A DNA stretch of 64,000 nucleotides from contig PUQB01000677.1 in assembly GCA_003024785.1 (NCBI GenBank), positions 1 through 64,000 on the forward strand, in the 5' to 3' direction. Positions 4,391 to 57,570 of this stretch are shown one piece after another. Both the position numbers and the translations under genes were made by a program. The notes beneath the pieces were generated by a model that was not told where the DNA came from, ran no database searches, and saw nothing but the letters and a program-made list of their open reading frames with translations. This DNA comes from Selaginella tamariscina. Its lineage: Eukaryota; Streptophyta; Lycopodiopsida; Selaginellales; Selaginellaceae. Positions within the stretch are counted from its first letter, which is position 1. Each line of letters opens with the position of its first letter.

Positions 4391-6400
4391 TCACTCCATC
4401 TCATCTAGAAGCTCCTCATTAGCAGGATCATCATCTTCGTCTTCATCCTCTTCTTCCATAACTTCAATATCAGCATCAGTAATTTGAGGAATACTTCCTG
4501 TCTGGCTCAATCCCACAAACTTATCATAGGAAGTGTGGCTCCCTATCAACTTGGTATTACTGGCCACAAATACCAAGTCTGCAATCCGGCTCACTGCTAA
4601 GCAATTCCTCTTCTTTGAAGCGATGTGCCCAAAAATGCTGAACAATCGCTCCACAGATGAGGAAGAACTTGCCTGACTAAGCACTCGAATTGCCAACCTC
4701 TGCAAATCTGGACCTGAGTAGCCATTGTCCTCCCACCACTGCACAGAACCCTTTGTTGTACGATCCATCTGAGAGTCCTCGGTGCCAAAACTACCCTCCA
4801 AGTTCCTGTATTGGCAAAGCTGATTTTTTATAGTTGACCTTTGCTGATAGTCAGGGAACTGGATCTTCAAGTACATGTTCCAATCTTTGGAAACTTCCCT
4901 GGATTTTTCTTGTCCTCGCCCCTGAAACTCTGGATCAAGCATGTATGCCACGGAGTGAAAGGTGCTATGATAAGCCCACCACCTGTTTGAAATCAATTGG
5001 TTTAGCTCCTCATACCTAAGATTGTTCTCCTCTTGTTGACGGATGTTCTCGCTCATCTGATCCATCCCCTCGTAGACCTTCCCAATCACAGGCACGTCTC
5101 CGTCAACCATCCGTAGCAAATACATCACCCTCCTTGAAACACCCAGCATGTGGTTAACCTCGTTCCAGTATGTATCGTTGAACACAATTCCTCGGCATGC
5201 TATCCCAGAATCTGTCCTTGACTCTAGCCTTGCATTGTAAGCGTCGCTCACAAACATTGTTGTAGCTTTGGCCTCAGCTCCACCAATCTCTCCATCATAA
5301 GAAAGTTGAAGGCGAATCGTGTTTCGCTGAACTTCAACACTCGTCGTGAAGAGAAGGATGCCAAAATTGCTACTAGATGCGAATGGTTCCGGAGGAAGCC
5401 AACCAGAGTCTTTCCCTTGTCTAGCAGCCCAACCATCCATGGTAGTTTTGCGAAATCCTTGAGAATGTTGTTCAAACAATGAGCTAAGCACGGAGCCCAC
5501 ATAATCCTTGGCTTCCTCGCCTCTAGAAGCCTAGCAGCAGCCTTGTTTGAAGCCTCACCATCCGTGACAATAAGAACAACATTCTCCTCTCCAACAATCT
5601 CGATACCTCGCTCCCATGTCGCAAAAACGTTATCAGCCGTCTTCCCACTAGAAGATATATCAATGGCCTCGAGAAAAGTCGACTGTCCTCTGCTGTATGC
5701 AACAAGCCCCATGATATGTCGATTTCTTGTGTCATTCCATGCATCAGCAACAAGAGTAACCCCACAATTCTTCCAACGTGCCTTCACCTTGGCAAGTTGA
5801 ACTTCAAGATTGGCTTTCTCCACTTGCAACAATTGCTCTCGCAATGCTGTCTCTGTTGGAAGATCGTAGGGAATTCCATGCCTTGCAATCTGCTACACCA
5901 TCTCCTTGAAATGATGAGAACGAGCTTTCACAAATGGTATGTGCTCGTTCCAGAAAAATCGTCCTATAGCCATATCCACTGCTTCCTTCCTTTTTGGATC
6001 AAAAGAATCCCGGATTCCTTGCTGTTGTTGCGAAAAAAAACCTGGAAATTCCTTCTATAGAATTGCCACTTGGTGTAGAACTCTGGGAAGCAACAAAACT
6101 CTCTCTTCCAGTGCTTTGGATGCCTTCGACACGTGTAGAAACTGCTCGTTTCTTGCTTTGGTGTTTTCCAGCCAAAACCTGGTCGTCGATGGTTTTAGCC
6201 ATCTCCCTAAGCTGTTTCTCTTCTCTGCTGAGATGATATCACAACTTAAGATTTCATGACCAGCTTCCCCTGTGAGATGTCCCTCACACGATCCACACCT
6301 GAAACTTTGTCTCTCAACGAACACCACTTGCAAGACCAGCGTCGATGCCCACTACGGCAGTTTGTTTGATCACCAAGGATCACTTCTTCCCACCAAACGG
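4391..6400 (-). pseudogene. hAT transposase (BED finger, DUF659, hATC), frameshifted
   Basis: Read from high to low coordinates: a BED-type zinc finger (WSCKWCSLRDKVSG, then in another frame GHLTGEAGHEILSC, 6,270-6,400). Next is a DUF659 / RNase-H-like segment with TLVADAWNDTRNRHIMG, VVLIVTDGEASNKAA and APCLAHCLNNIL (5,248-5,844). Last is the C-terminal hATC dimerisation region LSQASSSSSVERLFSIFGH followed by KKRNCL (about 4,560-4,690), and an acidic tail. At least two frameshifts (near 6,300 and 5,255) and one TAG near 5,893 break the frame. Normal hAT transposases are 600-800 residues; the joined segments here are of that order. Catalytic function is therefore lost in this copy unless supplied in trans. 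Confidence 0.85.
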
Positions 6401-17181: not shown

Positions 17182-17294
17182 GATGAGTCGAAGAATAAAA
17201 TCAAAAGAAAGAAAGAAAGAAAGAAAATGGGATCAATGACAAGCGGGAGCAAAAGCTTGTCACTACCTCAGAATCATTCAAACTATCACGACAT

Positions 17295-17645
17295 TGTGCA
17301 AAGGGCAAACCTTTAGAACAAGGGCAGAACCTTTGAGTTGAAATGAGGAAATTGTATTCAAGAGAGAAATGAAGAAACACAAGGCCAAAGACTAGTGTTG
17401 AATGATTTTGAGAAACCTGGAACTGGAACCTTGTTTATATATCTGAGGTCCTGAAGATTGTGTGGTCCATAACTGGTCTGGAATGTGTGGTCCACAACTG
17501 GTCTGGAACATGCGTATATGAATATACGCCTTACTATTGATGGTGTAATTTAGGATCCAAGATCATATGGACAAGTTGGTTAACACATATATGTGTTAGT
17601 GGAAAGGTCTTGGGTAAAGGCAAAAAATAATCCATGATTCTTACA
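17295..17645 (-). repeat. Gypsy 1 LTR (right, 5' LTR of the element)
   Basis: 351 bp. Same ends and internal blocks as 12,102-12,481, with several small deletions relative to it. Confidence 0.85.
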
Positions 17646-18186
17646 ATTAACCCCTAAGGTTTTGTGAGGCCAGGTTATACCTTAGACCTAGGGTTGAGGT
17701 TGTCATAAGAAAGCCCCTAGTAAATATAAAAAAACTTCTACTAACGAACTTAACGTTGTTCGACCCTTGAATATGTTCACACATCTCTAAGAAGAACACC
17801 CCACACTCACTTATGAAACATAACTTCCCTTGAGCAAATGTCTAAGAGAACACCCCACACTCACTTATGAAACATAACTTCCCTTGAGCAAATGTCTAAG
17901 AAGAACACCCAACTCACTTATGAAACATACTTCCCTTGAGCAAATATCCAAGGCTAACACTTAATGTGAGCATAAGCACGCATGCTTGCCATGATATTCA
18001 ACACCTCAACATTAATCCCATGGCACTAATTAATCCCTTGGATGCGGCTTACTCGGACACAATAATGTAGATTTGCCAACACTAAAGGTTGTTTTACCCT
18101 TAAGGTGTGATGTACCTTTACATGTTGAAAGTTAAAACGGCACAATAGGAGTTGTATCTTGACAAACAAGTTTAAGTTTGCACTAG
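17646..18186. repeat. LTR-B, second fragment, with internal 57-bp triplication
   Basis: Continues LTR-B after gypsy 1. The text aligns with 56,350-56,790 and, more distantly, with the 1.6-kb LTRs. A unit containing AACACCCCACACTCACTTAT and CTTCCCTTGAGCAAATGTC occurs three times at about 17,788-17,945. It ends at ACTAG (18,182-18,186), where the 13.1-kb element begins. Confidence 0.65.
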
Positions 18187-18214
18187 TATGCACGTTGTAA
18201 CTAAAATGGGCATG
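18187..18214 (+). repeat. Left terminal inverted repeat of the 13.1-kb element
   Basis: TATGCAC followed by GTTGTAACTAAAA and TGGGCATG. It matches the reverse complement of 31,304-31,325 over 21-22 positions with one inserted A. The outermost bases differ between ends, so the exact terminus is uncertain by a few bases. Confidence 0.6.
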
Positions 18215-18656
18215 ATACATGAAAGTGGGAATAAAATAAAAATTAATACTAATTTAATTATTATTAATTAATCATTTAATTAATATGTAATTAAGCCTTA
18301 AATATTAATTAATTAATTAATTAATCATTCAATAACCTTACTTAGTAAGGAATCCTAAACTATCTTAGAATATTCAATTATTCTAAAAAATAGTTTATAA
18401 TAATGAAGAAATACTATCAAACATAATTACAAATGAAATCATTCCTTATCAACATGTTAATTTATTTATAAATACTTTCTTCCTAACCATACAGAGAAAT
18501 CTCCTCATTTTGTCTAAATCATCACTCTCCGGATTAATCAAATCATTTTGGTCAATATCTTAATTGTTGCCACCACCTAATACCTCACGAATGCAATTGG
18601 GAGTTGCCATTCTTGTTAATACATAAGATGTAATAAGACCAGGTCTGCATAAAGGC
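18215..18656. other. AT-rich left arm of the 13.1-kb element
   Basis: No gene. Repeated AATTAATTAATT and TTAGAATATTC-like text; similar AGAATATTCT palindromes occur in the right arm near 31,190-31,240. Confidence 0.5.
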
Positions 18657-19845
18657 TCATCTAAAGAATGACGTTCCCTTAAGAATAATATTATAAAGCG
18701 CCCGGTTGCTATCCTTCATTTTATAAAATTCAAAATCACGAGAAAGAAAAGCTTCAGGAAATGTATGATACGGTGGATACTGCTCACAAAAATTTTCGAG
18801 ATTCTTCTTTCTGAGGCACGTATCCAAGTAGTTCACTAGCTCATCCATGATATCGGTATCAGAATATGGATCGAAAGTGATTGGATGAATACAAGCAATG
18901 TTTTGGTTGAGCATAGCCTTCTGAGGAGAGTCGTCTACTACTAAGATATGTGCATTCTTCATTATCCTTAAGCGACTGATCTCCCCATGAGTCCCAATTA
19001 TTCTTTCATTCTTGAAGAAGTATGGCTTGCTTTCCTTTCTTATATTGTGAAATTCGAGAGGTTTATAACACATTCGCTGGTCAAAAATCCAATCTTTACG
19101 AATCACCTCTTCTGCAACACTACAATGTTTCTTAAGCAAATTCAACAGCGGTGTTAAGTTATGAATCTGCATGCATGACCAAATCCCCACAAGCGCACCC
19201 ATCTCCTTAAGCTTTTGAAAGAGACGATCCAACCCTGGACGAAAAATAATATCATATCGAAATTTACCATGACAAGGAATGAAATCTCCTTGTTTGATTT
19301 CTTTTTTCCTATCCTCGGGCCTTTGTCGATGAAGCAGAACACCATTGACATCCAACAACACAATATGGCCATGAGTAACATGAGATAGCGTTGCCTCTTG
19401 AATACTTTGCAAATCACTTGTTTGCTCCCTTTCACATTTATCCGTTGCCACTATCTCGTTGCCTATCCCTTCATCATTTAATTGTACATCATCCTTACAA
19501 GATTCAGATATTGCATGCGCTGAAGAAATTGATTTCGGAACTGAAGCCAATAAAAATGATGATGAAAAAACTGAAGTGGCCCCCATGGTAACGATGTTTT
19601 GAGCTGCATTATTATCCATTTCCTGCATGAACTCTGTCATTCTGACATGTGGCACAAGAAATTGTCGCCAAACCCCTCTCTTACCTCATGCCAATGCTGA
19701 AAATCCATGTTCTCAATTGTTTCATTACATCTGCAAAATGATAATTAGCTGACCTTAAAATTATCAAGGTATATTATTTACCTTGTTAATGTGTGACCCA
19801 TGTTTGAACTAAAAGCTTCATTAATCCTTGAGAATTTATTTTCTG
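18657..19845 (-). CDS. FCP1/NIF-like HAD phosphatase domain protein (cargo gene)
   Basis: The main exon (ATG at 19,638-19,640, stop at 18,657) encodes about 327 residues. After a low-complexity N-terminus come HIVLLDVNGVLLHRQRP (HAD motif I), FRPGLDRLFQKLKEMGALVG with IWSC (motif II region), and HILVVDDSPQKAMLN (motif IV, the DD pair). These are hallmarks of the FCP1 homology domain, which dephosphorylates Ser/Thr targets such as the RNA polymerase II CTD. Motif I is DVNGV rather than DxDGT: the second aspartate, the usual acid/base, is Asn, as in some plant FCP1-like proteins, so activity may be altered. Upstream exon candidates are 19,784-19,845 (NKFSRINEAFSSNMGH) and about 19,690-19,735 (CNETIENMDFQHWHE), with plausible GT donors. 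The frame is intact, unlike its neighbours. Confidence 0.75.
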
Positions 19846-19911
19846 TACAAATATAAAAGAAATATACAAAAATGCCTTATGTTACACTCATTTACAACTA
19901 TTCGTCACTCT

Positions 19912-22900
19912 AACAATTCATTAACAATTCTTCTTCGCTATTACCTTCTGAGTGAGGCGAAGAAGGTCTAAGCCGCTTGTGAGATGGTTCAAGATCTTCT
20001 GCATCTTCTATTGATGTTTCCATGGGTAATGGAGTGTGCGAATGTTCTGTACTCCTCGAGATAACTTCCGGTCTAATATCTGATTGAAGTTCGTCCTCAG
20101 ACTCCGACATTGAACCAGATTCGTCTTCAGAGCTATCGCACTTATCTGGAGGGAACTTTCTCAAATACTCCTTTATGGATTCGTTGGGGTACTCAGTTGA
20201 GAACCTATCTATCCACTTGTTCAGGTCCTCAACCATGGTCTTATCCTTTTCAACGGCAAATACACATGTATGCCGAAGGTAACACTCCTTCAAGACGGAC
20301 CCCCTAGTGCAGTAGTCAAAAACCCACGCATCACTGTGAGGACCCCCTGATCAAGTTGACGATGCTCCGTGCCGCTTGACTGTGATGTTTGGATAACGTA
20401 CATTGCCGAATACGTCACTCTCCTATCGGTGTATCGGATGGAGGTTCAGGGCCGTTGGAGTGCAAACAGATGCCTGGCCAGTCATTTGGAAGTTTGAAAT
20501 GTTTGGCGCATTCCTAACAACCAAGTGAACAACCGAATCAATGCACTTCGGATCAGCATCATTCATATAAAATCCTGTCCAACGATGTTTATTCCTCTTG
20601 GCAAAGGAGAAGGCAAAGGTATCGGTGACATGAGCAAGAATCAAGAAATAAATACCTGAAAACGTAGATATAGTCAAGAGTGCAAGTATGAATTCAATAA
20701 TAAATACCTTCTTTGTACATGCTTGCACGGCTAAGTTTCTCCACCAAATCCTCTAGTGTCCTGTCTGTCGAAGGATTTTTTGACACCCGCCGATCCATCA
20801 CGAACAATTGAAACGGTTTCCTACAAGCAGTGATGTACCCCATAAAGTCTCCGAATCCAACAACAAACATCTGTAGGGCTTGTCGTGATTCGTAGCATCC
20901 TCCTTTATAAGGTTCAACTCGGTTCTCCGCTGCTGAAGGACTGCCATAAGAGAAGGCGTCATGCAATGTTCTCCTTTTTGGCGTTGGCGTGCAATAGATT
21001 CTTGCCCAGATCTTCCGATTGATTCACCCATTCGACAAGCATATCATCGTTTGTCACATGCAAATATTTGCTGACCTCTTCGTATGTTGAAGCGAAATCC
21101 AACCCAGTTTGTGGCAGTGTATTCCCAACCACTCCTTGAAGTGCCTGACCGTCTTCAACTCCATTGCCTTGAGATGAAAAGGAGAGGTGGGCTGCTGTTG
21201 TTAATTGTAATTTGCCATCAATCACCAAATCAGCCAAGACTTCCATCTCCTCCATCGTTGTTCCATTTAAAGGCTTCAACCATGTGAGCTTGAAATCGTT
21301 GTCTACATCCTTTATAGATTGAACAGACTTAGCCTTCGGCGTCTTACTGGGTTTCTTTGCAGACTTCTCTGAGGGCTCCACTTCACTTGTCTGCTTCTTC
21401 TTCAGTGTTCCTTTTGCAAAGGATTCCATAATCCCCAACCATTTCAAAAGATCCTATCCTCGGGACAAGAAATCAACATCATCAGAAAGGATGTTTCCTT
21501 CCCGCCCACCTGGGCAAAATCAACTGCTACAATTTCTTCAACTCTCTGAGGAAAAGACAGATTAATATACCGGCGAGATAAATCCCGCCCAAACAATTTG
21601 CTTACCCGGTATTCCGCAGATTGTGTATTCCCTGCGGTAGCTCTTTGTGGTCGCTGAAGAGATTCCCACACGGCTCGCGTGTGTTTAACTTCTCCCATAT
21701 TTTGCTGTTGTAGTGGTTGGTGTCTGCAGCGTCCCATTCCGCCGATAACTTATGGTACTGCTCGATTGTGAGATTCGGCTTCGCTAAAAACGCCGATCTT
21801 TTCGTCAGCTTCTCACGGGTATGCTCGGAAAGTTTTGTTGCCATCGTTCCTTTGTTGTGTTCGTCGAGAAGTCGTTGGGCTGCCGTTATTGTGTGCTGGC
21901 CACTAATGATGTAGTACTTAACTGATTTTCTATTCTCCGTCTGAACTTCCTCATTTGTTCCGGTGTTGTGATCCACACTTTGTCAGCGCCTTTGTTCTCT
22001 CGTAGTATGCGCACAAAACAGCATTATGTGGAACGGTGTAAGAATTGTCGTCCTTCATCTTCTCCATGAGCTCAGCTACACGTTCCTGATTGAGTGGCCT
22101 GTAATTGAAGTTTGGGTTGACGCTGCAATTAACCCTACACTGGTAAATCTATCATCCAACATCATTTCCTTGTGGCTTATTGCAGCATGGACGCCACAGG
22201 TGCAGCTGACAAAACGACTAATGATTTTCTTCTACGATCCGAATCAACATGTGTGATCCCCGATTGATGCTGTTCTAGTTCTCGGCACACTCTTCCAGCT
22301 CCCGAAATTCTAAGCAAATTGAACGTGATCTGTAAAACCTGAGACCAAGCCACCCTCTCAATCTCCTTTATGATGTCGCTGTGTTCTTCTTCAATGTGAA
22401 GAGGGACGATTGCTCCACTTGCTGATTTTCTGTATTGTGAAGCAATATCTCCTGACAATACACCTACTCGATGAGTCTGAAGATCTTCGAAGTAGACATC
22501 CAGATGGATCCCCTCCATAGATGGGCTTTCGTTGAGTTGAAGAAGAACTCCAAGGTCAACATCATTAGTGAACACGTGAACGTCATTATCCACAAGTCGA
22601 CAAAACCACCCGAAATTAATGTTGTAACTGGCGACCTCTGGATCCGAGAACGTGACATTGGATGGAACAAGGCATATGTGTCGAGCATCGTCAATCTGGG
22701 TTCACAGCATGCTTTCGGATGCTTGACTAGCACACTTTCCATTGTTTTGCTTGTCCATGCGATGTGACAGAGGTTAGTTTGACAGCAACCATGGTTGTTC
22801 CAATGCGCTTCCCGTTTAGTTTGAAATATGGCCAAGTTGATTCCAGAATCCCCCTGCCCATCTCTTCTCCTGCTCTCGTCTTTAATGTCACCTCAATTCC

Positions 22901-23031
22901 ACATCTGAATACAAAAATGATTAGTTCAAGCACATATCCGAGTATAACAGATTTTATTTTAATTCTTACCCAGAATTTGACGACGACTCCATACTAATGA
23001 CTCGATCTCCTTGTTTAATTAAATCGTCCTT
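19912..23031 (-). pseudogene. ParB-like plus DNA methyltransferase-like gene, multi-exon, degenerate
   Basis: From high to low coordinates: an exon at 22,970-23,031 (LIKQGDRVISMESSSNSG) flanked by a CAG acceptor and GTAAGA donor. A long N-terminal region of unknown fold follows (RGILESTWPYFKLNGKR; VTFSDPEVASYNINFGWFCR; 22,180-22,910). Then a ParB/Srx-like segment has RPLNQERVAELMEKMKDD (about 22,050-22,110) and YYIISGQHTITAAQRLLDEH (about 21,855-21,915). A basic linker (SEKSAKKPSKTPKAKS) comes next. The end resembles an N6/N4-type methyltransferase: VMDRRVSKNPSTD, FAKRNKHRWTGFY, and DAWVFDYCTRGSVLKE with VFAVEKD (motif I-like; 20,220-20,340), then an acidic tail. No (D/N)PP(Y/F/W) motif IV is readable. 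Several stops and frameshifts are present, some possibly introns. Domain calls are by motif only. Confidence 0.5.
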
Positions 23032-23329
23032 CTGCAAAATAATACACTATGAATACAAATCATATAAAAACGCACACACACTTGTATAAACCCGAATATA
23101 CAAAAATAATACACAGAGAGAAGTAGACGGAATTAACTGTCCAAAGCTCACATTTGTGCTAGTGCAAAAGAAAGATAACATTTCGTTTTAGAACCACCAC
23201 AAATGTGAGCTCTGGACAGTTTTACATAGTTCCTAGCTTTTACTCGAAATATTATGATAAGATGATAAAAGTAAATAAAATGAGATATGCAACTTATATA
23301 TACTAATACACATATATATTCACATGGAA

Positions 23330-24262
23330 GGTGCGGCGGGATTAATCTCGCCACCCCTTCAATGCCTCCTGAAAGAGTGGGCGGGATTAATCTCGCCACC
23401 TTTCTGGAGGCCTTGAACGGGAGTGCGGAATTAATCTTGCCACCCTTCTCGGTCTCAGAGAGAACTGGGCAGGATTTATTTCACACCCCTTCAGTGACTC
23501 CAGAAAGGAGGCGGGATTAATCTCGCCCACCATGTAAGGGATAAATGAATTTCGCCACCCTTCCCAGTTCTCTCCATTGGTATGTTGTAAACCTTCTACG
23601 TCTCAGACAGAAACGTTTGGGATTGGTCCGACTCACCAATGGAGAAAAAAAGGAAGGGTGGCGGGATTCATTCCTCCAACAGGCATTGAAGGCTCGGCGG
23701 GATTAATCCCGCCGCCCAGGGCCTTCACTCGGTCCCTATGCGGCGGGATTAATCCCGCCGGACGCCAATTCCCTGCTCGAATCGGGCGGGATTAATCCCG
23801 CCGCCTAGGCCCTTCAGGCAGGCCTTTGGCGGCGGGATTAATCCCGCCCGATTCCGCGCAGGGCAGCGGGATTAATCCGCGCCCAGGCCCTTCACTCGGG
23901 CCTAGTCGGCGGGATTAATCCCGCGACGCCAATGCCCTGTGCGAATCGGGCGGATTAATCCCGCCGCCTAGGCCCAGGAAGGCGGGGGGCGGGATAATCC
24001 CCGATTCCGCGCAGGGCATGCGTACGCGGCGGGATTAATCCCGCCACCTAGGCCCTTCAGGCAGGCCAATGGCGGCGGGATAAATCCCGCCCGATTCCGC
24101 ACAGGCATGCGTACGCGGCGGGATTAATCCGCCGCCCAGGCCCTTCACTCGGGCCTTAGTCGGCGGGATTAATCCCACTGCCGAGTGGCTAATTATATAG
24201 CGGCGGGATTAATCCCGCCGCTACACACGTCTCACCATATAGCGGCGGGATTAATCTCGCTG
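23330..24262. repeat. Palindrome array 1: about 21 copies of GGCGGGATTAATCCCGCC
   Basis: Imperfect to perfect copies of an 18-22 bp palindrome recur every 35-55 bp; perfect examples are at 23,741-23,760 and 24,200-24,221. Copies near 23,460-23,680 are decayed. Spacers in the second half are GC-rich and share text such as AGGCCCTTCACTCGGGCC, so the array grew partly by duplication of palindrome plus spacer. It lies about 300 bp upstream of the first recognisable exon of the ParB-like gene. Each half site contains GGCGGGA, the core of E2F sites, though the T-run of a full E2F consensus is absent. Confidence 0.9.
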
Positions 24263-24289
24263 CTACACACACACACACAGATATATACA

Positions 24290-24623
24290 TATTATACAGA
24301 TACTGGTACACATAATATATGTATGTATACATAGGTATATATATATATGTGTGTGTATATGTATATCGTGTGTATGCGTGTGTGAAACAAATAAAATCAT
24401 ACAGATAAACAAACACACACACACACATATATATACAGGAGTGTGCGTGTGTGTGCGAGAGATACAATTAACAAATCAATAAAATTATACAGATACACAC
24501 ACACACATATATATAGATAAATAAATAGAATATATATATATATATATCTGTGTGTGTGTATGTATACGAGTGTGCGTGTGTGCGAGAGATAGAGATCTAT
24601 AGAGAAGAGAGAGAGAGAAGGAG

Positions 24624-24654
<31 letters not shown>

Positions 24655-24831
24655 CTGTGTGTGTATATGTATACGAATGTGCGTGTGTGTGCGAGAGATA
24701 GAGATCTATAGAGAAGAGAGAGAGAGAAGGATATATATATATATATATATATATATCTGTGTGTGTATATGTATACGAGTGTGCGTGTGTGTGCAAGAGA
24801 TAGAGATCTATAGAGAAGAGAGAGAGAGAGG

Positions 24832-24874
<43 letters not shown>

Positions 24875-24950
24875 GTGTGTGTGTGTGGTGTATATATGTA
24901 TACGAGTGTGCGTGTGTGTGCGAGAGATAGAGATCTAAATTATATTATTA
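24290..24950. repeat. Minisatellite and microsatellite block
   Basis: About four or five units of roughly 105-115 bp, each made of GAGAGATAGAGATCTATAGA, an AGAG run, a long TA run, TGTGTGTATATGTATACGA and GTGTGCGTGTGTGTGC. Long open frames here are artefacts of the dinucleotide repeats. Confidence 0.9.
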
Positions 24951-25424
24951 AGATACACACACATATAAATATATATGTGAATAAAAATAAATAAATATCA
25001 CAAATAAATGCAGAGGAGTGTGCGTGTGAGAGAGAGAGAGAGAGAGATCTCACCTGTGTGAAGGAGATTTCGCTGCCGCGCCGCTGCCTTACAAACCTTA
25101 GGAATATACTAAAACCCTAAAAGGAATAGAATATATATTAACCTAATCAAATATTCCTTTTAAGAATATACTTAAACCCTAAAAAGAATAAACTATAAAT
25201 TCGCCCTAAACGAATATTCTTTCATTATATTATCAGCATGTGCGTGTGCGTGAGTGTATCACATACACCCCAAGAATAAATATCATGCAAGGGTTTAACA
25301 CGTGTGTGTCCATGAGAGTGTTAAAGTTTCACATGCAGCGATACATATATACACACATAGTATTATACACATACTAGACATACATACATATTAGTATATA
25401 TTAATATTAGAGAGACAGAGTACA

Positions 25425-25935
25425 GGATCATGTATGGTGTGTATGTATTAGAGAAGAGTGACATATATATTATGGATCATGCATGGTGTGTATATTTGAG
25501 AAAAGAGAGACAGTACATATTTACATGGATCATGCATGGTGTGTATATATAAGAGAAGAGTGAGAGTGTTAACAAATTAAATTCATACACATTGGATATA
25601 TTAGTACACATATATACATACACACATGTATACACACAAACATACATACATTACATGTGTAAATTCAATGTGTTACATAGGGTTTAGGGTTTAGGGTTTA
25701 GGGTTAGGATGGATCATGCATGGTGTTTATGTATGAGAGGAGTGAGTGTTATACACAGATATACATTATACATATTACATAATATTGTAACATCAGTACA
25801 TATTATGGATCATGCATAGTGTGTATGTATGAGAGAAGAGACAGGCTACATATTATGGATCATGATCATGCATGGTGTGTATGTATGAGAGAAGGGATTA
25901 TGCATGGTGACACTGTGTATGTATGAGAGAAGAGA
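25425..25935. repeat. Dispersed 35-bp motif GGATCATGCATGGTGTGTAT, about seven copies
   Basis: Copies near 25,425, 25,474, 25,529, 25,708, 25,806, 25,856 and 25,897. Each is followed by a GTATGAGAGAAGAG-like tail; spacing is irregular. The motif contains CATGCATG, which matches the plant RY element. Confidence 0.8.
25679..25707. repeat. Short interstitial telomere-type repeat (TTTAGGG)n
   Basis: About three and a half units of the plant telomere heptamer, embedded between copies of the GGATCATGCATGG motif. Too short to be a telomere. Confidence 0.9.
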
Positions 25936-27050
25936 TAGAGTGTTAACAAATGAAAATCGTACACATTGCATATATTATATTAGTACACATATATACATAC
26001 ACACGTGTAACACACAGACATACATATATATTACATGTGTAAATTCAATGTGTTACATACACACACACTGAGTACATATAGATCATACATGCGTTGAACA
26101 TGATGTTTTTCAATAAAGAAGCAACATATAATTTCTCAAGTTTGGTTTAGGGCAATGTGCATGTGTGTACATATGTGTCTCTGTAAGTGTTTCTAATGCG
26201 TGTGCACATGTATATATAAATTTATGATTGTGTTTATATATAATATGTGCAAAACAAATATCGAATAATTAAGAAAATAATATTAATATACACACTATGA
26301 ACATATTTTAAATTATACATAATAATATATGATTTTATCTAATATATAGCCATATATAGTTTTAATAATATATATTAATTTAATATTGATAATAAGGTTT
26401 AACACTAGAATATTCTTGAAATAATAACAAATTAATTGAGAAAATCCCATTAATATATACGAATAATTACTGAGATAATTAATAATAAGACTAATTTAAT
26501 TATGATAATTAGGTTTAATATTGGAATATTCTTCGAATATTAAGAAAATAATAAAGAATATCCCATTAATAGTAGGAAATGTAAATTAATTACTCGAGTA
26601 ATTAAGAAAATAAAATAATAAACAGACTATGAATATATTTTAAATGATACATAATATATATCAATTTATTTATTGTATTACTGTATATATATATATATAT
26701 ATATAACTTAATAATATATACTTGAATATTAAGAATGTAGAATAATTACAAAAATTTCGTAATATTAAACAGCTTGAAGCACTTGAATGACATTAAATGC
26801 AATTTTAAAACACTCATTGGAATTGGAGAGTATATATGTCAGACTGTCGGTTATTTGTTTCAACTCATCTTAAATTTTCTTTTCTGTTATTTCAAAAATT
26901 TTGAATTTCTGACATAAGTATTATCAGTCTGACATGTAAATTTGAAAATACATTTAATTTCCCACTTAAATTCAGATTTGGTTCTTTCTCCGACAAGGGT
27001 TTCTTCATTTTCACTCTTCAGATTTTCTTTTTTCTTCTTAGTGATCAGCT
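25936..27050. other. AT-rich non-coding core of the 13.1-kb element
   Basis: No gene seen. Contains repeats of TACACATTG..ATATATTAGTACACATATATACATAC text also present near 25,590, and several AATATTC stretches. Confidence 0.5.
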
Positions 27051-27289
27051 CAGGAGCGACATTAAATTGGGTGCACTATTGTTTATAGGAAAGCACGGCG
27101 CCTTCAATGCTGTTTACAAGTAAGTATTATAAACAAATTTAGATATATTTATAAAGATTCACTCTCTTACATTCTCTCTTAAATTTTAGAATTTAGGGAT
27201 TTAGGAATGCATTAGGATTACAATATATTATGTTAGGGATTTATCCCGTTTAAATATACTTTTAACTTAGTATTTTCTGTTAGCCGGGG

Positions 27290-28050
27290 CGGCGGGATTA
27301 ATCCGGCCATTTTTTTTCGCCTCTTTGAAGAGGTGGCGGGATTAATCCCGCCACCATCTCTTTCATAGCTATGGCAGAATTAGTTCGGGCAATGCTTCTC
27401 TGCCTCTTAAAAGAGCGGTGAGATTAATCCCGCCGATAACTCTCTCAACTGATAATGATTTACTTGAATTTATTAGAAAGAGTTGTCGGCGGGATTAATC
27501 TCGCCAACCATTTTAGGAGGCAGAGAAGGGGTGGCGGGATTAATCTCGCCACTACTTCCCTGTTTTAAATATTTGTGGGCAGAATTCATCCCGAATCTCT
27601 TTGAAATCATAGTTTCGGAGAAAGTTGTGGGCGGGATTAATCCCGCCGCTTATTCCCCGTCGTCAGAGTTGTGGGCAGGATTAATCCCGCCGTCTATTCT
27701 CCGTCTTCAGTGTTGTGGGCGGGATTAATCCCGCCCCCTCTTCCTCGTCTGAGGAATTTGCGGCGGGATTAATCCCGTCGACTCTCACAGACGAGGAAGA
27801 TCCAGCGGTGGGATTAATCCCACCAGTACTTCCTAGTCGGAGGGAGCCCCCGGCGGGATTAATCCTGCCGCTACTTCCTCGTCGGAGGGAGTCTGCGGCG
27901 GGATTAATCCCACCAGTACTTCCTCATCTAAGGGAGCCCGCGGCGGATTAATCCCGCCACCTCTCTCCGACAGGGTAGAGTCGGCGGCGAGATTAATCCC
28001 GCCGACTCTCTCCGATGGGGTAGAGTCTGCGGCGAGATTAATCCCGCCCA
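27290..28050. repeat. Palindrome array 2: about 17 copies of GGCGGGATTAATCCCGCC
   Basis: Same palindrome as array 1 at 35-55 bp spacing; a perfect 18-mer is at 27,630-27,647. Spacers differ from array 1 and include CTACTTCCTCGTCGGAGGGA and CTCTCCGAC-type text, so this array expanded independently from the same core. It ends about 150 bp before the ATG at 28,202. Short frames reading GGINPA or AGLIPP are translations of the repeat and not genes. Confidence 0.9.
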
Positions 28051-28201
28051 TCAATTATATTAATAAAGCATGAGATATTATTTTTATATATAATTATGTA
28101 TTATTGCACATGCATATTATTAAGCAACTGCAGTTATGATTTCTTACAAATATTGCATAACAGATATCATAAATAACACAATTTTTTATGTGTAGGACAA
28201 T

Positions 28202-30783
28202 ATGTATAATACTGGAGATAAAGTATGTATTCTTCGGAACAACGAGATAGTTGGCACTGGAACTGTGGAAGTTCGAGATGATAATGCATCATGTCACAAT
28301 ATTGCCCAAGGATCTTATGTGTATGTATGGGTGAACACCATTTTTAAGCATGTTGAGGTTCCTGGAATGGAATTTGAGGAGGGTTCTCCTGTATTGTGGA
28401 ATTTGGATGAAGTCAAGGCTGACACAGAATATACAAGAGTCACAAACAAACAGTAGTACGAGTTTTCCAGATGATGGCTTGCCTGCTGTGATGGATGAGG
28501 TGATTCTCTTTCTTCATGAAATTGAGGTTGGGAGAGGCATCATCACAGCTATAAATCCAATGGAAGCAGTGTCAGAAGAGAAACTAGGGTCCGACTTTGT
28601 GGGTGTAGTTGTGACAGAGGTTTCACCTAATGGCACTTTGCATCCTGGATCCCTTGTGAGGTGGCGAACATCTGAATTAAGACGGCAAGATGGTTCAACA
28701 TATTCTGGGTTGGATTTCAATAATAACAACCCGGAAGAACAACTCATATTTGAAGAGGTTTCCTTGCATTGGTCCTATTAAAAGAAAAAGGCGATTCATG
28801 GGTTGCAGATCTTCCCCTACATGTTTCAGCAAGAGGATGAAGATGGATCCTACATCTTCCGAAAGTGTTACGAGCATTTCCACGATTGACTGCTGCAAGA
28901 AGAAGTGTTGTCAGATGGCAGACCGGAATGAAATTACCCAATGTAACATGTCTTTCGTACGCTCACCCAAAAGCAAAGGCATGAGTTTGTATATGCTGCA
29001 CTAACTGGGTGTATTGATGGAATGGCTTCGGACACAGGTTATCAGAGTACATCCATGGTATTTAATTAAGGTGGCCATCTGCTTCAAAGCTTGGTACAAT
29101 ATATATGGGATCCCAAAGACCACGTTCTACCGTTGGAGGGATGAGTGGTTAGATGGAGCGCGAACCTTAGTACATGGGAACACTGGCTTGGTCAAAACCT
29201 GCTCTCACATTATGGCAGCCATAGAGATACTCAAGGCTTTTGTGGAAGCAAATGCAAACAGGATGCCTCACAAATGCCGAACCACAAATGCAGGGGTTAA
29301 GGAAAATCTCAAGGTTTTGCCTTCGATCTACACTCAATTGAAGCTGTGTGAACATGTGAACAAGTGCCTCAGCTTGATGGGGCTGCAAGCAATCTACACT
29401 GGTACCTTCAACAACATATGGAATACTCATTTTAAGGATGTGGAGATTGCAAAAACACTCTAGCTTTTCCAAGTGTGACACTTGTACATCATTGAAGGCT
29501 GCAGAGGCTTGTGCAAAAAACCTTGGTGGAGATCACTGCCATTCAAAAGAAGATGGAGGCCCACATGATTGCGCAACAAACTTGCCGGTCTCAGTACTAT
29601 GCACACCGCATGCTTTCTTGTGTCACGCCCATCAAGTACCTGTACTTAATCCATGACAAGATGGATCATTCAAAGACCAGCATTCCAAAACACCAAAGTG
29701 CCTTAGGAAATGTCATGAAACTTCCGATTTCATTAACAGGTGTGCTAACACATGGACACGGTTGTGAATCATATGGACACTTTTCACTTCCATTGGTCTA
29801 ACGACTCCAATTTCACTATTGGGTCGTTGCCATGTGTTTCAGAAACCTTGAAGCCCACTCACAGAATCCTATCGGTGATCTCAAAGTGAAGAAACAACAC
29901 CTTCAACCTTTACATAATGCTCTCATGAAAACGTCTGCACTTGAGGCTACTTGGGAATATGAGAGGCATTGTCACAACCTGCACAAAAAACAGATGGCCA
30001 TGTTGAGAGTTCAGGTTTAGTGGAGGGATCTAGCTCAAATAGTGTACATGTGTCCTCAACATCAAATAAGCTTCCTCGTCATTTGCTTTTACAGATGGAT
30101 AATTGTGCAGGCGAGAAACAAAAATAGGTAAATCATTTTACTTAAGGGTTTCTCAAGCTCATACTTACTTTTATTTTCTAGATATGTGCTAGCATACTTG
30201 TCAATGCTTGTTGCTAAAGGTGTGTTTGAAACAATCACGTTCAGTTTTCTTATGGTTGGTCACACTCATGAAGATATTGATGCGTTCTTCAGCAAGGTCT
30301 CCAACTCTACAAAAAGGACAAGTGCACTTACCTTACCGCATATGATGAATCTTTTTTGAAAATTGCATCTCCAAAAAAAGTTGTGCTTTGCTTGTGACTG
30401 AGGTGCCAGACTTCAAAAAATTTCTCAAGGAGTATATAAAAGAGGGGAGTGATTCTTAGTTGGTCACCTTGTGCCTACAATTCTTTTTCTCCATACGAGA
30501 TGGTATACCTATTATGCAGTACAAGTTACGGCCATCAGAGCAGGAGTGGTTAAAGAGGGGTTAATGCTCTTCAAAAGTGGGAGAATGGAAAGCCACTTCT
30601 CCCAGAAGGACAACCAGACCCTATTCCATTGAGTGCCCAGCTCAAGGAACAAGAGGTTATTATTGATGGCATCAAAAAATATGTGGCATGGGTTCAAAAA
30701 TCGATGCCAAGAATTCTGATAAGGCAACTGGTTACTCAGAACTATATAAGTCATTCGATATGGGTGGATGTCAAGAAGCGTTG
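28202..30783 (+). pseudogene. Transposase-like gene with GHTHEDID motif (DUF7869-like), degenerate
   Basis: A TAG acceptor at 28,195 precedes the ATG at 28,202. The first frame (MYNTGDKVCILRNNEIVGTG) and the next (DEVILFLHEIEVGRGIITAI) look like two small beta-rich modules. Coding text continues through frameshifts: CRSQYYAHRMLSCVTPIKYL (about 29,580), MKLPISLTGVLTHGHGCES (29,720), QMDNCAG (30,090). A 54-bp intron (30,128-30,181, GTAAAT...CTAG) joins NKN to RYVLAYLSMLVAKGVFETI, then FLMVGHTHEDIDAFFSKVS (about 30,250-30,300). The DNxxxxxKN...GHTHxDID pattern resembles uncharacterised DDE-like proteins annotated, as I recall, DUF7869; I infer it is the element's transposase. Multiple frameshifts make this copy non-functional. 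Confidence 0.55.
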
Positions 30784-30839
30784 ATAAAGTCACGATTAAC
30801 AAAACTGCAAGGGAATGTATGTTTTCTGAAGCTTAAAGC

Positions 30840-31300
30840 AATTACAAAATTATAAAATATCATATATTTAATATTCATAATTATTATAAACTCTTTAATA
30901 AGTACCAAATTGTTTACTTAACTATATAAATTTAAAAAAATGATATGAAGATTGACTATATTATTATAGGATTTTTTATATTATTATTACTACTATATTT
31001 TAATTAATAAGTTATATTTAAATATTAATATTTTAATAACAACATCAATATTTATATAATGTACCTCTTATGCTCTTCCTTAATTGTTATATTAGGCAAT
31101 ATATTATATAATTTAATACCTTCTACTTTTATAATGTTATTAATTTTTGTTCATGAATGCTATAATTTATTAAGGGTAATACAAAATAGAATATTCTAAA
31201 GAATATTGTTTTCAAACATATATTCTAAAGAATATTCCTTTAATATTAGAAAATGCTAATTAAATAGTTAAAATTGCTAATTATTAAGGAAATGGACTAT
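30840..31300. other. AT-rich right arm of the 13.1-kb element
   Basis: No gene. Contains TAGAATATTCTAAAGAATATT-type palindromes near 31,190-31,240, echoing the left arm. Confidence 0.5.
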
Positions 31301-31303
31301 AGC

Positions 31304-31328
31304 CATGCCCATTTTTAGTTACAACATC
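31304..31328 (-). repeat. Right terminal inverted repeat of the 13.1-kb element
   Basis: CATGCCCATTTTTAGTTACA followed by AC and ATC; it is the inverse of the left end. ATTAG follows directly. Confidence 0.6.
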
Positions 31329-31333
31329 ATTAG

Positions 31334-31710
31334 TAGAATAATGGGCTCTCTCTAAACACTAATATACCCTATCTTATTTCCAATATTAACCTAACCTTAA
31401 ACCTAGCCTAGGGAGGTTGTTAAGTAACCATATGGGTGTTCCTAACCCTATTAGACATGCCAACTCAACAAAACTAATCAAAAATCTAACCAAGATATGC
31501 AAATAAGGGGAGAGTTTTCTAAATGTCAAGTTTTAACTTTGTCCATAGTTTCTTATAAATACCTAATACAACCATCATAAATATTAAGTGCACTAATCAG
31601 ACATGTCTTTTACAACATCTAGGGTCAATTGACATAGTACAATAAGTAAATAATAATCAACTTTCAAAGTAAAGAGCAGTTGTAGTAAAAATTATAATGT
31701 GTTCGTTTTT
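31334..31710. repeat. LTR-B, third fragment
   Basis: Resumes LTR-B after the 13.1-kb element: text aligns with 56,800-57,155 and with the last 400 bp of the 1.6-kb LTRs (GAGAGTTTTCTAAATGTCAAG; CAATTGACATAGTACAATA). Confidence 0.65.
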
Positions 31711-56349: not shown

Positions 56350-57155
56350 CTTTTTGTGAAGCCAAGTTATACCTTAGACTTAGGGTTAATATTTAGTTGT
56401 AACATGAGGTTATGATAATAAAGCCCCTAAAGATAGGTTTGGACATTGATCACATAAGTGCCTCACAACAAAGTTTCTACTAACGAGCTTAGGTTGTTCG
56501 ATCCTTGAATATGTTCACACGTCTTTAAGAAGAACATCCATATTCAAGAGTGCCAATTAGTGCACTCATTTATGAAACATAACTTTCCTTGAGCAAATGT
56601 CCAAGGCTTAACACTTTAATATGAGCATAAGCATGCATACTTGTCATGATATTCAACACTTCAACATTAATTAATCCCTTGGATGCAGCTTACTCAGACA
56701 TAATAATGTAGATTTGCCGACATTAAAGGTTGTTTTACCCTTAAGGTATGACATACCCTTACATGTTGAAAGTTAAGACGGCACAATAGGAGTTCTTATT
56801 TATGTAAACCCTATTTGTATAAGTGGATCCAATATTTAGTGAGTTTAACTTTAACCTAACCTTAAACCTAGAACAAGGCAACCCTATGGGTGTTCCTAAC
56901 TCTATTAGACATGCCAACTCACTAGAACTAATCAAAAATAGATCTAACCAAGACATGTAAAATAAGGGGAGAGTTTTTTAAATGTCAAGTTTTATCTTTG
57001 TCCATAGTTTCTTATAAATACCTAACAACACCATCATTAAATATTTAAGTGCACTAATCAGGCATGTCTTTTACAACATCTAGGGGCAATTGACATAGTA
57101 CAATAGGTAATAATAAATAACTTTCAAAGTAAAGAGTGGTTGTAGTAAAAATTAT
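56350..57155. repeat. LTR-B, right copy
   Basis: Begins immediately after the second inversion junction with TTTTTGTGAAGCCAAGTTAT; collinear with 17,655-18,170 and 31,350-31,705. An internal deletion near 56,792 removes the region where the 13.1-kb element sits in the left copy. Confidence 0.65.
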
Positions 57156-57570
57156 AAGAATGTGTTTATTTTTATTGCATAGAGAAACTAGAGTATCTTT
57201 GACATAATTTAGTAAAAAAGAAGAATGTGTATAAGTTTGAGAATATGAACAAGCTTGTATATTGTTACATCAACATGAGAGTTATGAAAATCATATAAGA
57301 AAAAGGTATGTAGCTTATGGAAATTAATATTAACAATATTAATTTAGAAGCATAATGGTAAAAGACTATTAAAGATATAAGATAAATAAAAAGAGTTTGA
57401 GGAGTTATTAAACTCCATGTAAGAAGAAAAATGAAATTGTGTTTAGATTTAAAACTAGTTTAAATTGTGTATTTTTATTTGAGCCAAGTTTGAATTTGCA
57501 TATAAATTGTTTATTTAGGTGATGTTTTGATCAACATTTGTAAATTGTAACATGTTTGTTTGTAACCTTT

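Follow-up and report, generated by a model that had tools for sequence, protein, structure and literature searches.

The 64,000-nt stretch of Selaginella tamariscina DNA analysed here (positions 1 to 64,000 of contig PUQB01000677.1, assembly GCA_003024785.1; hereafter the window) carries, at positions 18188-31330, a DNA transposon of 13,143 bp with 27-bp inverted ends. It belongs to a young family of very high abundance, whose large elements measure 13-15 kb. We put the probability at roughly 0.7 that it is a cut-and-paste transposon of the Sola1 kind, with a DUF7869 transposase, a ParB-like accessory protein that reads 18-bp palindromes, and a carried phosphatase gene.

The left terminal inverted repeat, ATGCACGTTGTAACTAAAATGGGCATG, was placed by comparison of ends among copies at 18188..18214 (plus strand), and the right one lies at 31304..31330 (minus strand). 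In the window copy the right end lacks one base close to the tip, reading inward as ATGAT against the ATGCAT or ATGCAA of other copies, and carries one surplus A. Reading of the flanks gives a target-site duplication TAGT at 18184..18187 and again at 31331..31334, its 4-bp length being that found in other copies. An earlier note on this DNA was right about the inverted ends and about the flanks (ACTAG and ATTAG), while the borders it gave (18187..31328) had to be moved. Perfect 4-bp duplications were found in six of the seven copies with both ends read, namely the window copy, L011 (CCCA), L015 (ACTG), L017 (TAAT), L019 (GTTT) and a copy on contig C794, whose left and right ends, separated by 13.7 kb and treated as belonging to one copy, are both flanked by CAAT. 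The two 27-bp ends match each other at 25 of 27 positions in L011, L015, L017 and L019. The seventh copy, L009, has no duplication; it shares its left flank with the window element (91.7% identity over 1,006 columns) but not its right one, and we take it as a probable recombinant. The left junction shared by L009 and the window extends over about 1 kb (window 17255-18187) and fits either recombination between copies or segmental duplication. Ten other left ends all start with ATGCA(C/T)G, and the flanks preceding them vary, that of L009 again excepted; of 29 other right ends, 27 have (A/T)TGCAT after GTTACAAC and two are one base off in length, and the ten bases beyond these ends vary by copy, save that L043 and L054 are alike. 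Inverted ends common to many dispersed copies, together with a target duplication of fixed length in all copies so read but L009, are the features of a cut-and-paste transposon with terminal inverted repeats.

The flanks of the element match two parts of one other repeat copy in the window, at 56467-57557, the repeat being a putative LTR in the earlier note's terms: on the left, 17728-17846 and 17912-18153 match 56467-56605 (76%) and 56564-56794 (86%), and on the right, 31386-32090 matches 56851-57557 (89%). Around the junction about 34 bp on the left, about 51 bp on the right and 56 bp of the other repeat copy stay unaligned, and this copy therefore gives no base-exact empty site.

A search with terminal probes of about 500 bp each yielded 2,056 first-look candidates for the left end and 1,978 for the right; among the best 40 scored per end, the 39 other than the window copy were 93-95% (left) and 96% (right) identical. 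The 27-bp terminal pattern ATGCAYGTTGTAACTAAARTGGGCATG has 1,638 exact matches in the host assembly, a count that includes some right ends of the ATGCAT form, and its reversed control has none. An 18-bp palindrome that forms two arrays within the element, GGCGGGATTAATCCCGCC, has 27,128 exact copies in the assembly, again with none for the reversed control; as there are nine exact palindromes in the window copy and 10-14 in each of four end-to-end copies free of N, we estimate that roughly 2,000 copies or fragments, to within an order of magnitude, bear arrays. Of the ten copies that were fetched, five follow the window element collinearly over its whole length, apart from local gaps or insertions, and the left 5 kb is common to all ten (with a 1.35-kb deletion in L019). 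Across the left part of 11 copies, identities are 94.2-99.5%, gaps left out. Between window 18195-23044 and L015 we counted 31 substitutions and 39 gaps, 28 of them of a single base, in 4,896 columns; the excess of mostly one-base gaps over substitutions between near-identical copies suggests that many of the frameshifts in element copies are long-read assembly errors in repeats.

The gene named GHTHEDID in the earlier note is indeed present, at 28202..30836 on the plus strand (approximate borders), and its reading, joined across frameshifts, matches DUF7869 (PF25273) with an E value of 1.7e-35. In the window it is broken by indels and lacks about 470 bp near 30750, though these are present in the end-to-end copies. 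A GT-AG intron of 54 nt, deduced from the sequence, lies at 30128..30181, between ...NKNR and YVLAY...; it is found at the same place in the compared copies with small differences in length, L058 lacking the GT. Proteins of the DUF7869 family share the domain and its invariant motifs with the element, and their function is unnamed. Transposases of elements with terminal inverted repeats have an RNase-H fold with an acidic triad, and here we found invariant acids and, in a fold search made with the transposase model only, a predicted RNase-H fold for a relative, at a modest Z. The modelled fold and the acids suggest that this protein is most likely the transposase, and not the cargo it had been taken for. 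When viral contigs were scanned with the alignment of the transposase, none of the 22 pattern matches was a relative, and we reject a viral origin. A match to HTH_23 (E 0.02) and other matches in the Pfam scan with E values of 0.04-0.25 were taken as chance.

The window holds 34 sites within four mismatches of the palindrome, nine of them exact, and none lies outside the element; ten mononucleotide shuffles contained no site each. All but one fall into two arrays, in agreement with the earlier note. The left array (23335..24261, 18 sites, 12 of 17 spacings 40-46 bp) is upstream of the accessory gene, and the right array (27291..28048), which has 15 sites and 11 of its 14 spacings at 44-45 bp, is upstream of the transposase gene; over both, 20 of 31 spacings are 43-46 bp. 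The lone site, at 21572..21589, is inside the accessory gene and recurs near the same place in four of five end-to-end copies, L019 being the exception. Sites per copy number 31-38 in the four end-to-end copies free of N and 17 in L009, which has 2,683 N. CpG shows no depletion in the arrays, with observed/expected ratios of 1.01 (left) and 1.07 (right); the ratio is 0.65 for the rest of the element, 0.80 for the accessory gene and 0.38 for the transposase gene. Between the two arrays, the spacer (24262..27284) is AT-rich with CA/TG/GA repeats and includes a plant-type, telomere-like run of four TAGGGTT at 25678-25705.

These arrays could be passive, a promoter element duplicated in tandem and read by a transcription factor of the host, with the ParB-like protein unconnected to them. 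Their position directly upstream of the two divergent gene blocks would fit, as would their build of tandem units of about 44-45 bp, in which the spacers between palindromes are also alike. Against this reading stand the exact 18-bp palindrome kept in many units, at the per-copy numbers given above, and the lone palindrome inside the accessory gene. The abundance of the palindrome against its control also speaks against it, as does its company with the element: on contig C1, to which the first 100 of the 27,128 palindrome places inspected all belong, a palindrome cluster lies 2.1-2.5 kb upstream at six of six DUF7869 places among the matches listed. The per-column tally of the palindrome is not independent proof, as its sites were picked by their core. 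We regard passive arrays as the strongest of the competing explanations, though a doubtful one.

The accessory gene, of about 1,000 residues, occupies approximately 19910..23000 on the minus strand, opposite to the transposase gene. Indels interrupt it in the window, whereas copy L025 has 651 residues open between stops. We take its stretch YYIISGQHTITAAQRLLDE to resemble ParB-type domains and a later VFDYCTRGS...VFAVEKD to resemble, in degenerate form, motif I of N4/N6 methyltransferases, both as motif resemblances without profile support. Searches of Pfam, PHROGs, NCBIfam, PDB and a protein database gave no ParB or methyltransferase match, the protein-database searches (for this gene and for the phosphatase-like gene) being limited to relatives with exact five-residue words in common. 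Matches to PHROG 21535 (E 0.12), Rhomboid_N (E 0.014), PH_BUD3_C (E 0.02), ArsI_CadI_VOC (E 0.086), proline-tRNA ligase (E 0.0004, but 19 bits against a cut-off of 558) and a phage ParB relative (one match, E 7) were all taken as chance, and the predicted structure of the ParB piece had a pLDDT (predicted local distance difference test) of 41. The interrupted reading that the earlier note called ParB-like/methyltransferase-like is therefore there, while the name is a candidate one that draws on motif resemblance, layout and published precedent. Because no profile search backs a methyltransferase, the 'epigenetic cargo' role is still something we infer.

Because a naive ratio of non-synonymous to synonymous change did not separate coding stretches from a non-coding control (0.45 versus 0.49), it was replaced by a test built on the observed mutation spectrum. 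With the five segments of the accessory gene summed over 11 copies, there were 111 synonymous variants where 81 were expected and 168 non-synonymous ones where 210 were expected, a synonymous excess which suggests that the gene was probably translated and selected during the spread of the family. The same test gave 0.40, 0.41, 0.58, 0.75 and 0.90 for the single segments, 0.78 for the phosphatase-like gene and 0.96 for the 600-nt non-coding control. Upstream of the accessory gene, at 23135-23221, there is a 35-bp inverted repeat, 86% complementary, with its arms 17 bp apart.

The outermost gene, at 18657..19685 and likewise on the strand opposite to the transposase, encodes a HAD phosphatase-like protein of the NIF/FCP1 type (Pfam NIF, PF03031, E 3.8e-12), consistent with what the earlier note had reported. 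Its reading from stop to stop is 342 residues in the window, 340 in L015 and L017, and 412 in a majority sequence taken column by column from 11 copies. Among 820 candidates from the protein database that shared words with it, none reached E <= 0.01. Phosphatases of this type have D-x-D as their first motif; in its place this protein has D-V-N, and its phosphatase activity is therefore uncertain.

Several superfamilies can be set aside by their ends and duplications: CACTA/EnSpm elements have CACTA-type termini and a 3-bp duplication, PIF/Harbinger elements a 3-bp duplication, and MULE and Pack-MULE elements one of 9-11 bp, while the termini here are ATGCA and the duplication is 4 bp. Sola1 elements make a 4-bp target duplication, the length found here. 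The closest published element is Sola1-1_Ec32 of the brown alga Ectocarpus, a giant DNA transposon of 21.5 kb with 1,989 copies, two of them intact, in the published table; on the strand opposite to its transposase it encodes a protein of 1,104 residues with ParB-like and N4C/N6A methyltransferase domains (PMC12477816, here and below for the portion of that account consulted). The two have in common a giant size and a transposase gene accompanied by a large accessory gene on the opposite strand, the accessory gene of about 1,000 residues following the Sola1 ParB-methyltransferase layout (about 1,100). At the same time, the Selaginella family is smaller (13-15 versus 21.5 kb), adds a phosphatase gene and two arrays of 18-bp palindromes as candidate binding sites, and has an accessory protein without a profile-detectable methyltransferase (PMC12477816). 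What the Selaginella family adds to the known kind is the phosphatase gene together with the palindrome arrays, and arrays of this sort are not mentioned in that portion of the Sola1-1_Ec32 account (PMC12477816). The earlier note knew of no named plant transposon family with such a gene set; a related set has in fact been published, though in an alga (PMC12477816). Sola elements are also on record for land plants through a Physcomitrella Sola1 known here by its name in a review table, its gene content not being in the part of that account consulted (PMC9033089). In the literature searched on ParB, Sola, transposases and methyltransferases together, the Ectocarpus paper was the only relevant one, the one other paper being judged by its title.

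Compared with Sola1 elements through their published descriptions, the element is most likely a giant transposon resembling Sola1 and a variant within a kind already known. It might instead represent a new transposase superfamily outside Sola1 that gained its accessory genes independently of the algal elements, since the literature searched, as far as its texts were available, did not contain the name DUF7869 and offered no link of DUF7869 or of ATGCA termini to Sola1. The 4-bp duplication, a Sola1 trait, argues against this, and the giant size and opposite-strand accessory gene fit Sola1-1_Ec32 (PMC12477816), which makes a separate superfamily unlikely in our view. That the interior genes are unrelated insertions is very improbable: although in five of the ten fetched copies collinearity stops short of the right end in the sequence covered, the other five are collinear at sites distinct from one another, and four of these have duplications of their own. 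Together with the six duplications in seven copies and the six clusters on C1, this bears out the single mobile unit of the earlier note, though the accessory and phosphatase-like genes may also occur outside the element.

Elsewhere in the window, 4394-5892 (minus strand) holds open frames of 379 and 214 residues, which presumably resemble hAT-type transposase.

For the Sola1-kind transposon we propose that the DUF7869 protein, as a DDE/D transposase, would bind to the 27-bp ends, cut out the 13-15 kb unit and reinsert it through a 4-bp staggered cut. In both arrays, which lie close to the promoters, the palindromes would be the sites read by the ParB-like accessory protein, which would in this way control or mark the divergent promoters of the element, keeping them expressed or unsilenced, and the phosphatase-like product, judging by its FCP1/SCP relatives, would perhaps act on the transcription machinery. 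In bacterial ParB-parS systems and plasmid iteron arrays, a ParB gene stands beside arrays of repeated sites. The element is like them in that a gene of putative ParB homology adjoins palindrome arrays, and unlike ParB-parS in that we noticed no ParA-like partner in it; no partition role is suggested. The Ectocarpus authors proposed that such accessory proteins bind and modify their own element (PMC12477816), and by analogy the Selaginella element may mark its own DNA. A stronger version, in which a ParB-like protein binds the GGCGGGATTAATCCCGCC arrays in a parS-like manner and modifies the CpG-rich promoters or shields them from silencing by the host, would explain the abundance of the family, and we offer it tentatively, as an improbable but specific idea.

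The element links DUF7869, a domain of unnamed function, to an actual transposon whose ends and target duplications are defined. If self-marking holds, the palindrome would be a first specific candidate for the site recognised by the ParB-methyltransferase accessories of algal transposons, for which the published account, in the portion consulted, gives no binding site (PMC12477816). With a very abundant young family, the algal layout and a precise candidate site at promoter position, the self-marking proposal becomes directly testable.
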